From: a virus
IMG/VR virus record: IMGVR_UViG_3300027782_000389
Coordinates: 1-22,547 of that record
Direction: 5' to 3' (one strand)
DNA length: 22,547 nt
Shown one piece after another: positions 2,224 through 22,547 of this stretch. Every line of letters begins with the position of its first letter. Position 1 is the first letter of the stretch. The position numbers and the translations under genes were made by a program. Below the pieces are notes generated by a model. The model worked only from the letters and a program-made list of their open reading frames with translations, was not told where the DNA came from and made no database searches.

Positions 2224-2250
2224 TAGAAAATTGTTTTATTTTCTGTTCCA
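2224..2250 (-). repeat. Split, inverted relative of the 13-bp repeat
   Basis: Read on the minus strand, this segment contains TGGAACA followed, after a short AT-rich insertion, by ACAATTTTCTA. These are the two halves of the unit repeated at 3068-3191 on the plus strand. The terminase small subunit gene therefore lies between an inverted, interrupted copy and the direct array. Confidence 0.5.
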
Positions 2251-2326: not shown

Positions 2327-3064
2327 ATGAAGACACTAAGCAGAAAGCAGATCAAGGAAGGACTAGAACAAGTCCCAATGGCTGACATCCTCGGTGTATC
2401 CCGCAAGGCGATCACACCCAAAATGCAAGCGTTCGCCCAAGAGGTCGCTAAGGGTTCAACGAAGGCTGACGCATACCGCAAGGCGTACAAACCAAACGCA
2501 AGCAAGCATACGCTAGCGAGTAAGCCTTACGAGCTAGCCAAGGACGTAAGGATTCAGGCAGAGATCGAAGCCTATCAACTGGCAATTGAGGCGAGTAAAC
2601 ATCGCACCCCTGCGGCTTTGAGGGAGTTGGTCATTCAATCCCTTGTCCAAGTAGTGATCGACCCAAAGGCCAAACAGTCCACCAAAGTGGCGGCCGCTAA
2701 GGTGCTTGGCACAGTCACGGAAGTGGCGGCATTCACTGAGCGCAAGCAAGTGCACACGATAAGCAGTAGTGCAGACACCAAGGCGCAGATCATGGCGCAG
2801 TTGCGGCAGATGCTTAACGGGCGCGCGGAAGACGCGACGATAATAGAGGCGGACACGCTATTAAAAGAGTTGGCAGGCGAGACCCACCCCAGTGCCACCC
2901 CCCAAGCCAGCCAAGCGGAGTCCCATCTACAGTTACATACTATTCCACCCGAATCAACCCATTCAGGATCGGTTTCACCAACCCAACAAGATTTGGCCCC
3001 ACCCCCAAAAAATCCGTGGGGCGAGAACCCCACCCCTTCGTTTAGGGAAGACCCCCCGGCCTAG
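2327..3064 (+). CDS. terS: Terminase small subunit (TerS)
   Basis: It recognises phage DNA and presents it to the large subunit for packaging. Residues 29-85 fit the Terminase_2-type N-terminal helical region: ITPKMQAFAQEVAKGSTK, then ADAYRKAY, then a VRIQAEIEAY helix, a pattern shared by many TerS proteins. A second helical part (97-140) would form the oligomerisation core. Residues 185-245 are a low-complexity Pro/Ser/Thr/Gln tail, unusual in length and probably disordered. The start has AGGAG 10 nt upstream. The gene precedes the large subunit, separated by a repeat array and a small winged-helix gene. The functional call is from motif recognition and position; the symbol is generic. Confidence 0.8.
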   Translation: MKTLSRKQIKEGLEQVPMADILGVSRKAITPKMQAFAQEVAKGSTKADAYRKAYKPNASKHTLASKPYELAKDVRIQAEIEAYQLAIEASKHRTPAALRELVIQSLVQVVIDPKAKQSTKVAAAKVLGTVTEVAAFTERKQVHTISSSADTKAQIMAQLRQMLNGRAEDATIIEADTLLKELAGETHPSATPQASQAESHLQLHTIPPESTHSGSVSPTQQDLAPPPKNPWGENPTPSFREDPPA

Positions 3065-3067
3065 AAT

Positions 3068-3191
3068 CTGGAACAATTTTCTACAAAAAATTTTCTAGAA
3101 TCTGGAACAATTTTCTAGGTTGTAGAAACTGGAACAATTTTCTAAAAACTGGAACAATTTTCTACGATGCAGAAAACAGAACAATTTTCTA
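3068..3191 (+). repeat. Array of five 13-bp direct repeats between terminase genes
   Basis: The exact 13-mer GAACAATTTTCTA occurs at 3071-3083, 3105-3117, 3132-3144, 3152-3164 and 3179-3191. Four copies are preceded by CTG and one by ACA. A degenerate copy with two mismatches lies at 3085-3097. Start-to-start distances of the exact copies are 34, 27, 20 and 27 bp. Several units are flanked by TAGAA, so each can pair TAGAA with TTCTA as a small dyad. The first unit begins 4 bp after the TerS stop codon. Plausible roles are a TerS recognition (pac/cos-type) site, an operator for the downstream winged-helix protein, or an iteron origin. Confidence 0.85.
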
Positions 3192-3272: not shown

Positions 3273-3497
3273 ATGACCCCGGTGCAGAAGGAAGTGTTTT
3301 TGATTATTGATGAGTGGTGGAAGAGGTATGGGTTCAGTCCTTCTTTAAAGGATATAGCCCATCAGAGGGGAAAGATGAGTATGTCTAATACTTCTAAAAT
3401 AATTAAGCGGCTTGTGAATATAGGTGTTATAAAGAAGGTGGATAGACAGGGTAGGACGATAAGACCTGTGTATATTAACTTTAGAAATTTGGAATGA
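3273..3497 (+). CDS. LexA-like winged-helix DNA-binding protein (74 aa)
   Basis: The protein matches the N-terminal DNA-binding domain of LexA: MTPVQKEVFLIIDEWW, then GFSPSLKDIAHQRG, then a recognition-helix region SNTSKIIKRLVNIGVIKK and a wing ending RTIRPVYI. The LexA peptidase half is absent, so it cannot self-cleave like LexA. The frame is open from an ATG at 3198, but the ATG at 3273 is preferred: GGAGGT lies 4 nt upstream and the protein then begins where LexA begins. Its stop overlaps the next start as ATGA, coupling it to the terminase large subunit. It may be a regulator binding the adjacent repeats, or a packaging accessory. Confidence 0.75.
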   Translation: MTPVQKEVFLIIDEWWKRYGFSPSLKDIAHQRGKMSMSNTSKIIKRLVNIGVIKKVDRQGRTIRPVYINFRNLE

Positions 3498-4984
3498 AGC
3501 TAGAAGATTTGATTGAGAAGTTGCCTGCGAACGAGCAGGAGGAGTTCTTGGCGAGTGTTGAGATGTATAAGAGTGCATTAACTCGGGAAAAGTGTCATGC
3601 TTCTTTTATGGAATATATCAAGGAGATGTGGCCGGGGTTCGTGGGAGGAAGACACCACTCTCTAATGGCTAAGAAGTTTGAAGATATTGCTAATGGGAAG
3701 ATTAAGAGATTGATTATCAATATGGCTCCTCGGCATACAAAGTCAGAGTTTGCTTCTTATCTTTTACCTTCATGGTTTCTTGGCCGTTTCCCGAATAAAA
3801 AGGTTATCCAGTGTTCTAACACGGCGGATTTAGCGGTGGGTTTCGGAAGGAAGGTTAGGAACTTAGTAGATTCAGAACAGTACTCTAGGATCTTTCCTAA
3901 TGTAAGTTTGAGACAGGACAGTAAAGCTGCCGGTAGGTGGGCGACCAGTGGGGGTGGAGAGTACTTCGCTATTGGTGTTCAGGGTACGGTAACGGGTAAG
4001 GGTGCAGATCTTTTAATTATTGACGATCCGCATTCTGAACAAGAAGCGGCTTTAGCTCAGGGAGATCCTACTGTATTTGATAAAGTTTACGAGTGGTACA
4101 CCTCTGGCCCTAGACAGCGACTTCAGCCGGGTGGGGCTATTGTTGTTGTGATGACGCGCTGGTCGGAGAAAGACCTGACTGGTAGGATCATTAAGGATGC
4201 AGCCAGTAGGGATAAAGGGGAGGAGTGGGAGGTAATTGAGTTACCAGCAATCATGCCGAGTGGGAAACCTTTGTGGCCTGAGTTTTGGAGTTTGGAAGAG
4301 TTGGAGGCTTTGAGAGATGAGTTGCCTCCTAGTAAGTGGAACGCCCAGTATCAACAAAGTCCCACGGGAGAAGAGGGAGCTTTAGTTAAAAGGGAGTGGT
4401 GGAAGATTTGGGAGAAGGAGGATCCTCCTAAGTGTGAATTTATCATTCAGAGTTGGGATACTGCTTTTACTAAGAATGAGAGATCAGACTATTCCGCCTG
4501 CGTGACTTTGGGTGTTTTTCACATGAACGAGAACCCCGAGGATGTGAACATTATTTTGTTGGATGCTTTTCAAAAGAGGATGGAGTTTCCTGAATTAAAA
4601 GAGAAAGCATACAACCACTATAAAGATTGGGAGCCGGATGCTTTTGTTGTGGAGGCTAAGGCCGCAGGAGCGCCGTTGATATTTGAATTAAGACGGATGG
4701 GGATTGTGGTGAGTGAATACACCCCGAGTAGAGGAAATGATAAGTTTGTGCGACTAAATTCGGTGACTGATTTGTTCAAGTCGGGTAAAGTATGGGCACC
4801 TGATACGAGGTGGGCGCACGAGTTGGTTGAGCAGATGGCGGCGTTTCCAAACGCAGATCACGATGACTTGGTTGATGCTTGTGTCCAAGGCTTAATTCGT
4901 TTCAGACAAGGTGGGTTTTTGCGGCTTGATACAGACGAGCGCGAAGATCTAGTCGGCTTTAGAAAAAAGCACGTTTACTATTGA
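3494..4984 (+). CDS. terL: Terminase large subunit (TerL), packaging ATPase/nuclease
   Basis: This is the motor that cuts concatemeric DNA and pumps it through the portal. The ATPase part shows a variant Walker A (MAPRHTKSE, about 77-85), Walker B (LLIIDDPH, 173-180) and a coupling motif (VMTRW, 219-223). The RNase H-like nuclease part has acidic residues at D322 (QSWDTAF), E387 (VVEAKAAG) and D457/D458/D461 (HDDLVDA). The length of 496 aa is normal. There is no clear ribosome binding site: the ATGA overlap with the winged-helix gene suggests coupled translation. Arg codons here are often AGG/AGA, unlike the capsid genes downstream. Confidence 0.95.
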   Translation: MKLEDLIEKLPANEQEEFLASVEMYKSALTREKCHASFMEYIKEMWPGFVGGRHHSLMAKKFEDIANGKIKRLIINMAPRHTKSEFASYLLPSWFLGRFPNKKVIQCSNTADLAVGFGRKVRNLVDSEQYSRIFPNVSLRQDSKAAGRWATSGGGEYFAIGVQGTVTGKGADLLIIDDPHSEQEAALAQGDPTVFDKVYEWYTSGPRQRLQPGGAIVVVMTRWSEKDLTGRIIKDAASRDKGEEWEVIELPAIMPSGKPLWPEFWSLEELEALRDELPPSKWNAQYQQSPTGEEGALVKREWWKIWEKEDPPKCEFIIQSWDTAFTKNERSDYSACVTLGVFHMNENPEDVNIILLDAFQKRMEFPELKEKAYNHYKDWEPDAFVVEAKAAGAPLIFELRRMGIVVSEYTPSRGNDKFVRLNSVTDLFKSGKVWAPDTRWAHELVEQMAAFPNADHDDLVDACVQGLIRFRQGGFLRLDTDEREDLVGFRKKHVYY

Positions 4985-7358: not shown

Positions 7359-8147
7359 ATGACTAAACCGCTAGTATCCCTATTAATGGCTGCGTATAAC
7401 AACGTGGCTTACATCAAAAACGCTATTGATAGCGCGAAAAAGCAGACTTATAAGAATTGGGAACTGATAATTCTCGATGATGGGTCTGATGATGGTACTT
7501 GGGAGCTAGCGCAGGTCTTATCTAAGGGCGATAAACGCATAAAAGTCCACAAAAATGGGGTAAATATTGGCTATAACAGCACAATGTTGAAGCTTTCTGG
7601 GCTTGCAAAAGGGGACTTTTATGCTCATTTTGACAGCGATGACATGCTTGAAAGGTATGCCATTGAGGAGATGTTGCTGGCTTTTGACCAGTTACCAGAC
7701 GTTAAGTTTATATATTCAGACTTTGCCCAGATAGGTAAGAAGGGTGAGGTTGAGCACTATTCCCCAAGTCCCACATTTGATCCTAACAAATTACATCAAC
7801 ACGGCTGGAGACATTTTGGAATGTACCGCTCAGATGTAATGAAGCACATTCAAGGTTACAACGAGAAGCTGGCTAGTACTAATGGCTGTGCAGATGGCGA
7901 TTTGTTTATGCAAATTGTTGAGAAGTTTCCTGCGGCACGATTACCTAAAGTGTTGTATTTATACCGAAACCACGGAAATAATATTAGTACAAAGAATGCC
8001 AAGTGCGAGTCATGTCCTTTAAGAAAGGATTGTAACTTTGCACGAGTATGGTGTAAGTCGGCTAATTACGACATTAATACTTTTAAATTAATAGAGGTGC
8101 ATCATGGAATTGAAGATATTCGACATCCTGAATCAGCGAATAAATGA
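7359..8147 (+). CDS. GT2-family glycosyltransferase with C-terminal Cys cluster
   Basis: This is a GT-A fold enzyme that would transfer a sugar from a nucleotide-sugar donor. The N-terminal pattern LVSLLMAAYNN, the DDGSDD motif (40-45) and the metal-binding DSDD (92-95) are diagnostic. NGCADGDLFM (175-184) corresponds to the acceptor-side acidic motif. The last third has four cysteines (C216, C219, C225, C232) spaced CxxC-x5-C-x6-C, suggesting a bound zinc or a structural cluster, which is unusual for the family. It starts directly after the portal stop and overlaps the next gene by 44 bp, so it is embedded in the head operon. The acceptor is unknown. Confidence 0.88.
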   Translation: MTKPLVSLLMAAYNNVAYIKNAIDSAKKQTYKNWELIILDDGSDDGTWELAQVLSKGDKRIKVHKNGVNIGYNSTMLKLSGLAKGDFYAHFDSDDMLERYAIEEMLLAFDQLPDVKFIYSDFAQIGKKGEVEHYSPSPTFDPNKLHQHGWRHFGMYRSDVMKHIQGYNEKLASTNGCADGDLFMQIVEKFPAARLPKVLYLYRNHGNNISTKNAKCESCPLRKDCNFARVWCKSANYDINTFKLIEVHHGIEDIRHPESANK

Positions 8148-21644: not shown

Positions 21645-22547
21645 ATGTCTATAAGACAAATGTTTCCGGGGAGTATTGTTAAGCCGGGGTTTAATCCTCT
21701 GGGGGCGCAGACTGCTTCAACTTTATTAAGTTTATTCAGTTGGGGATATAACAATCATGGACAACTTGGTATAAATAGTTTAACAACTTATAGTTCGCCT
21801 CAGCAAGTTGGCGCTTTAACTGATTGGCTTACTGTTGCTTGTGGCTATTACCATAATGTTGCTACAAAAAATGACGGAACATTATGGACTTGGGGTTGGA
21901 ATAGCACTGGACAACTTGGACTTGGTAATACAACACAGTATTTATCTCCAAAACAAGTGGGCGCACTAACTTCTTGGTCTACAGTTTCGGCTGGAGGGGG
22001 TACTACTGCCGCAATTAAAACAGATGGAACCCTATGGACTTGGGGATATAACAACTCTGGTCAACTTGGTTTAGGTAATACTGCAAGCCGTTCGTCTCCA
22101 AATCAAGTTGGTGCATTAACAAATTGGTCATCTATTGCTGTTTTAGTCCGTTCAACTTTAGCAGTTAAAACAGATGGCACTTTATGGTCTTGGGGTCAAG
22201 GTTCTTTTGGGAATTTAGGTCTTGGTAACACCACAAATTATTCCAGTCCTAAACAAGTAGGTGCATTGACCGCATGGTTAAAAGTTGCTGGTGGTTTTTA
22301 CTCTTCTATTGCAATTAAAACAGACGGAACTCTTTGGTCTTGGGGATATAACTTTCGAGGTCAATTGGGTTTAGGGGACACAACTAACCGTTCTAGCCCC
22401 GTGCAAGTAGGTATACTTACTAATTGGTTAAGCGCAACTTGTGGTTATGTTAATAGCGTTGCCGTTAAGACTGACGGTACTTTGTGGACTTGGGGGGGTG
22501 GTAATCAAGGCGGGTTGGGTCTTGGTAATACAACTAATTATTCTTCG
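21645..22547 (+). CDS. RCC1-repeat beta-propeller-like protein, 3' end missing
   Basis: The frame stays open to the right edge (301 codons, no stop). After a 31-residue leader, five exact 50-residue units (residues 32-281) and 20 residues of a sixth repeat. The consensus contains WGYNxxGQLGLGxTTxxSSP, then QVGALTxW, and ends VKTDGTLW. This is the RCC1 repeat, normally seven blades of a propeller. GGGGA lies before the ATG. It is the last gene of the fibre block, so a host-receptor or glycan-binding tip is plausible. RCC1 repeats in eukaryotes bind chromatin, but here only the fold is implied. Confidence 0.88.
   Translation, partial: MSIRQMFPGSIVKPGFNPLGAQTASTLLSLFSWGYNNHGQLGINSLTTYSSPQQVGALTDWLTVACGYYHNVATKNDGTLWTWGWNSTGQLGLGNTTQYLSPKQVGALTSWSTVSAGGGTTAAIKTDGTLWTWGYNNSGQLGLGNTASRSSPNQVGALTNWSSIAVLVRSTLAVKTDGTLWSWGQGSFGNLGLGNTTNYSSPKQVGALTAWLKVAGGFYSSIAIKTDGTLWSWGYNFRGQLGLGDTTNRSSPVQVGILTNWLSATCGYVNSVAVKTDGTLWTWGGGNQGGLGLGNTTNYSS

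Follow-up and report, generated by a model that had tools for sequence, protein, structure and literature searches.

The window analysed here, a 22,547-bp linear IMG/VR fragment, carries a repeat array between the gene of the small terminase subunit (terS) and a gene for a winged-helix protein, with the gene of the large terminase subunit (terL) next in line. The 13-mer GAACAATTTTCTA occurs five times without a mismatch on the + strand, at 3071, 3105, 3132, 3152 and 3179 (spacings of 34, 27, 20 and 27 bp), just as an earlier note on this DNA had described, and the additional degenerate copy that it mentioned is likewise present at 3085-3097, with two mismatches. In 200 dinucleotide shuffles of the window, and also in 2000 shuffles restricted to the 500 bp around the array, no 13-mer exceeded two copies within 200 bp. 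The full repeat unit extends beyond these 13 bp. It is the 22-bp TAGAAWCTGGAACAATTTTCTA with symmetric ends, an imperfect palindrome of the form TAGAA-N12-TTCTR, and the centre of the units in the window (type A) is weakly palindromic. The features of the locus are as follows.

2224..2245, - strand: sixth copy, an isolated, inverted and degenerate site CAGAAAATAAAACAATTTTCTA upstream of terS
2327..3064, + strand: terS, small terminase subunit, 245 aa (PHROG 51)
3062..3083, + strand: array unit 1, TAGAATCTGGAACAATTTTCTA, whose first three letters are the terS stop codon TAG (3062-3064), so that unit and gene overlap
3085..3097, + strand: degenerate half copy AAAAAATTTTCTA, within an A/T-rich spacer
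3096..3117, + strand: array unit 2, TAGAATCTGGAACAATTTTCTA
3123..3144, + strand: array unit 3, TAGAAACTGGAACAATTTTCTA
3143..3164, + strand: array unit 4, TAAAAACTGGAACAATTTTCTA, sharing the TA with unit 3
3170..3191, + strand: array unit 5, CAGAAAACAGAACAATTTTCTA, whose end lies 6 bp from the winged-helix start codon
3198..3497, + strand: winged-helix protein, 99 aa (Pfam LexA_DNA_bind)
3494..4984, + strand: terL, large terminase subunit, 496 aa (PHROG 38)

Comparison with related phages offers a greater level of detail about the array. A TerL search yielded 80 related loci, all on metagenomic contigs that may be incomplete. In about 20 phages with 93-98% identical TerL, an array occupies the same place, the gap between terS and the winged-helix gene, and differs in its centre. 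The site ends TAGAA/TTCTR are common to this whole clade and the centre is specific for the phage type, examples being TAGAAAAATTAAAATTTTTCTG (type B), TAGAAATGATTAATGATTTCTA (type C), TAGAAAACTTAAAAGTTTTCTA (F-like) and TAGAAATATTTAAATATTTCTG (type D); the centre of type A2, TAGAAATGAGAACAATTTTCTA, is nearest to that of the window. Within one phage, one centre is common to all sites, and in the close relatives checked, the site upstream of terS equals or closely resembles the phage's own array in type and is sometimes in the opposite orientation. The arrays of the relatives comprise 2-6 direct copies with A/T-rich spacers. At the position of the degenerate copy at 3085-3097, an A/T-rich spacer of comparable length, ending in TTCTAG regardless of the site type, is present in most relatives, with a variant in G011 and G007. 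As for the repeats being absent in close relatives, a case the earlier note would have counted against its reading, the exact 13-mer is indeed missing from nearly all of them, but another palindrome stands at the same place. Spacings that differ by multiples of 7 proved to be a property of the window and not of the relatives, where values of 20, 22, 24, 26, 27, 32, 33, 34, 35, 46 and 60 occur. TerL was also considered as a lead to the host; its matches in bacterial genomes are limited to four short contigs, binned under phyla that are unrelated to each other, and we therefore assign no host.

In the long relatives, further cognate sites lie away from the array. One of them lies at a convergent gene border and shares bases with the stop codon of a giant gene, roughly 1780 aa long. 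Another is located just upstream of a promoter-like TTGACA/TTGCAA-N19-TATAAT sequence in the early region, at about 5-7 bp (mostly 6-7 bp) from the -35 element in 11 of the 11 clade contigs in which the promoter motif was found. Upstream of terS, no clear promoter was seen. When each phage was scanned with the consensus of every type, it returned sites of its own type, and cross-matches arose nearly exclusively among B, F and G, which are similar types, the others being a few coding or near-type matches in C phages; 20 shuffles gave no match, and neither did the clade contigs scanned with the site pattern read backwards. One apparent site, within a gene resembling nucleotide-sugar epimerases (G002 53938, G004 19603, also in G001), was discarded as a coding coincidence, being nearly one sequence across different types.

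The early region shows two further features. Directly 3' of the site-bearing promoter lies a conserved structured RNA (L119:6398-6700 and nine relatives, L118, L120-L123, L125, L127, L128 and L131), with 52 predicted pairs, 17 of them with compensatory changes, which ends in a strongly conserved GAGACTGGGACTG...CAGTYCCAGTCTC stem and matches neither Rfam nor tRNA. An extra stretch with repeated GGGGCAAATGGGGCAA-like sequence, absent in G001-G003, lies between terminator and promoter of the early region in G004 (42306-42734, L102:2306-2734).

About 7-9 kb from the array, these phages encode a ParB-like protein, whose gene is followed by those for a helicase and a primase-like protein, an order that recurs in the GenBank phage MW202545. 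All 20 of the 20 members compared match PHROG 1033, 'ParB-like partition protein', and Pfam ParB_N gives a weak match below the cut-off. The AlphaFold model is of moderate quality (pLDDT 76, pTM 0.47), and a Foldseek search with it retrieves structures of ParB, Noc, KorB and Spo0J with E-values down to 2.4e-6, KorB 8qa9 being matched at 1.7e-5. Judged from this model, the protein has a ParB-type N-terminal fold followed by a helix-turn-helix (HTH). Its motifs TQSR, GYHRYFA and AENGRHR resemble, by eye only, the nucleotide boxes of ParB proteins, and the nucleotide could be CTP or ATP. The clades with 78-90% identical TerL encode a ParB-like protein as well. Several of these have dispersed palindromes of their own, such as GTGGTAACGTTACCAC, GTTGCAACGTTGCAAC and CCGTTAAATTTAACGG, and in some, one site lies inside the ParB-like gene. 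For many of the wider set of relatives no palindrome was recovered, often because the terminase region falls outside the contig.

To see which protein tracks the site centre, we compared site distances with whole-protein distances for orthologues present in at least nine contigs. The best agreement is found for TerS, the ParB-like protein, its small neighbour and the winged-helix protein. Sliding windows over 15 contigs separate these candidates, with a peak at the HTH of the ParB-like protein (Spearman 0.62; permutation p = 0.0005), values near zero for the N-terminal 60 columns of TerS, and zero or negative values for the winged-helix core. The strongest windows of TerS and of the winged-helix protein are the segments next to the array, in TerS the C-terminal tail, and this array-adjacent signal is linkage. 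The small gene beside the ParB-like gene also correlates with the site (0.56-0.58), probably again through linkage. Upon collapsing the set to 11 phages, the HTH retains a correlation of 0.46 (p = 0.003), compared to 0.26 for the N-domain and 0.03 for the C-terminus. Site types agree in 14 of 14 contig pairs with identical HTH, against 3 of 11 pairs with near-identical TerS N-termini.

A near-minimal natural pair points in the same direction. The ParB-like proteins of G021 (type B, like G004) and G001 (type C) are 97.6% identical and have identical N-domains; in the recognition helix, NL is replaced by ES, and the two phages differ in site type. G001 and G002 (type F) form an exception. They have VTLVESVR as recognition helix in common, and within the HTH only N/S at about residue 118 distinguishes them, yet the two phages differ in their centres; the centre must then depend on more than this helix. 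In G011 (type A2), the recognition helix reads VSAFLVASVRGK. In the wider family of 26 phages, helix and site show a partial correlation of 0.47 (p = 0.0002) with the rest of the protein allowed for, and since other windows of the ParB-like protein score equally high in this set, descent is a confounder. At the level of sequence, cognate cis palindromes co-vary with the ParB-like HTH, with G001/G002 as the one exception pair, and the 22-bp sites probably pair with the ParB-like protein. The contig of the window stops short of the ParB-like gene, and the pairing of its own array with its own ParB-like protein is predicted; the recognition helix of that protein would be a distinct one, closest to the helix of G011. 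We looked for this gene by way of a type-A site placed in front of a -35 element, which gave 39 chance stretches, none of them related, and the inverted form gave 0.

These patterns bear on the reading put forward in the earlier note, namely a packaging site of the pac/cosB type. At such a site TerS would bind the repeats, TerL would cut nearby and DNA packaging would begin. The array does lie directly after terS, its repeats are in tandem, and many relatives inspected have at least one palindrome in the terS-to-terL interval. However, the sites are not confined to this region, since single cognate copies occur well away from the terminase genes, where the giant gene stops and at the early-region promoter, and the N-terminal region of TerS does not change with the site, as columns 1-60 show a correlation of about 0 with the site type. 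The claim of a TerS-read packaging site thus finds no support, and we consider such a function quite unlikely. TerS is a mosaic among phages of near-identical TerL, with N-terminal alleles of at least two kinds (ADILGVS... and TELLGVS...) combined with different site types, and closely similar TerS N-termini accompany four types, in the window (A), L005 (B), L012 (C) and L013 (F). TerS was accordingly rejected as reader of the centre, its N-terminal part being without co-variation and its strongest window being the tail encoded physically beside the array; it could still bind the constant TAGAA/TTCTR ends. The winged-helix protein, which the earlier note had named beside TerS as a possible binder (the 3273 protein), has a core that hardly varies from one site type to the next, and it was therefore excluded as the factor that reads the centre.

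Synonymous-site conservation was tried as a clue to a hidden packaging site and abandoned, because windows of low variation are spread over terS, the winged-helix gene and terL alike. Across 19 phages, synonymous changes are almost absent at 3399-3437 of the window (winged-helix codons 68-80) and at about 4763-4813 (terL codons 424-440).

The array can be best explained as a cluster of loading sites for an orphan ParB/KorB-type protein from the phage replication module, a reading that the sequence comparison makes fairly likely. Each 22-bp palindrome would be bound by one dimer via its helix-turn-helix, and the site centre would change together with the recognition helix, phage type by phage type. 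In analogy to KorB, loading would take place at these sites, perhaps followed by closure of the protein as a nucleotide-dependent clamp. The early promoter would be controlled from the site 6-7 bp upstream of its -35 element, and the late operon starting at terS from the site upstream of terS, the array before the winged-helix gene and terL, and the site where the giant gene ends. The comparison itself reveals the sites, their dispersal, the concerted changes of their centres, the co-variation with the HTH and the ParB fold, and direct binding, nucleotide clamping and transcription control with its sign are what we infer. An operator array had been the fallback reading of the earlier note; this fits best, although the reader would be a protein that it did not foresee, encoded elsewhere in the genome.

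Other functions for the same sites have to be weighed. The ParB fold, the clustered palindromes with dispersed copies, and the site within the parB-like gene itself in other clades would suit a centromere for partition or DNA organisation (a parS cluster), with the phage kept as a plasmid or using a ParA of its host. Against this, searches of 14 long relatives, in contigs that may be incomplete, found no ParA-type ATPase (PF13614, PF01656), with controls giving signal, and no integrase or resolvase (PF00589, PF00239), and we regard partition as rather unlikely. The absence of these proteins, along with an early-promoter geometry like that of KorB proximal operators, leads us to favour transcription control as the main role of the system, an assignment by analogy to which we give a little under an even chance. 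KorB proximal operators lie 4-10 bp upstream of promoters, with other KorB sites being distal (PMC11790492); here, the site close upstream of its target promoter is the one at the early promoter.

The proximity of the ParB-like gene to helicase and primase-like genes, also in MW202545, and the 2-6 direct array copies with A/T-rich spacers bring to mind an origin with iteron-like repeats, at which the ParB-like protein would act as initiator and melt the DNA. The array is nevertheless about 7-9 kb away from the replication genes, cumulative GC skew has no turning point there (G002, G004), and sites occur also at a promoter and a gene end, which makes an origin unlikely. Between terS and the genes that follow it, the palindromes might also act as transcribed hairpins, in processing or termination. 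The predicted folding of array transcripts is better than that of shuffles (z of -2.7 to -8.2), yet any inverted repeat would behave in this way. A symmetric G-G mismatch is present in type C and pairing in the centre is poor in type A, one site lies upstream of a promoter and hence outside its transcript, and the co-variation is with a DNA-binding helix; a role at the RNA level is therefore highly improbable.

Our preferred reading, loading sites for an orphan ParB/KorB-type protein, has parallels in several known systems. The KorB-OB system of plasmid RK2, with its CTP clamp repressor, shares the ParB-fold HTH protein, the dispersed operators and the palindromic promoter-near sites, binding being predicted in our case. 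In contrast to KorB-OB, the present system is phage-borne, its site centre varies by phage and no KorA homologue was identified, the winged-helix protein beside the array being a candidate partner. ParABS systems, including those of phages P1, N15 and cyanophage Mic1, likewise combine a ParB-like protein with clustered and dispersed palindromic cis sites, and a site inside the parB-like gene has its counterpart in our other clades. In Mic1, however, a parS-like palindrome goes with both ParA and ParB (PMC7156551), whereas ParA was not found in the 14 long relatives, whose sites lie at promoters and gene ends. The nearest regulatory analogue are the stoperators of cluster A mycobacteriophages, dispersed phage-specific sites that are numerous and vary in sequence along with a DNA-binding protein of the phage (PMC6550527). 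Here too, dispersed phage-specific sites are matched to a phage-encoded candidate DNA-binding protein, but the reader would be a ParB-fold protein and not an L5-type repressor, the sites are far fewer, and the 14 relatives gave no integrase or resolvase; lysogeny of a plasmid-like kind is conceivable. In ParB/Noc, four residues in the HTH region suffice for a switch from parS to NBS (PMC7383237), and natural variation in these phages falls in the equivalent helix region. Unlike that switch, many site types exist here among phages whose other genes are mostly >90% identical, and the dispersed sites change in concert. Our literature search returned general surveys of orphan ParB proteins (PMC12704722) as well as ParABS systems of phages, and no description of a dispersed, co-evolving site set in ParA-less phages.

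If the preferred reading is true, an orphan ParB-type protein takes the place of a classical repressor or activator in a group of uncultured phages that is abundant. The phages would also provide a natural series of matched protein-site pairs for reading the ParB recognition code, including the near-minimal pair with identical N-domains, and would allow one to ask why phages diversify this code. A bolder reading, which we consider possible but doubtful, is a regulation, perhaps immunity-like, by a ParB-fold clamp, in which each lineage has its own protein-site code, sites are rewritten in concert and co-infecting relatives ignore each other's regulator.

Outside the array, the window displays several other features. 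To the left of terS, among small genes on the minus strand, are repeated hairpin-like elements of the CCAAAGCCCTC...GGGCTTCAGGC type at 568-604 and 1443-1479. An ORF at 7359-8147, flanked by the portal gene on one side and the capsid genes on the other, resembles family-2 glycosyltransferases and occurs in two allele classes, about 63% and >90% identical. The run of structural genes is closed by an open-ended ORF of RCC1-type repeats with a period of 150 bp (21645-22547).
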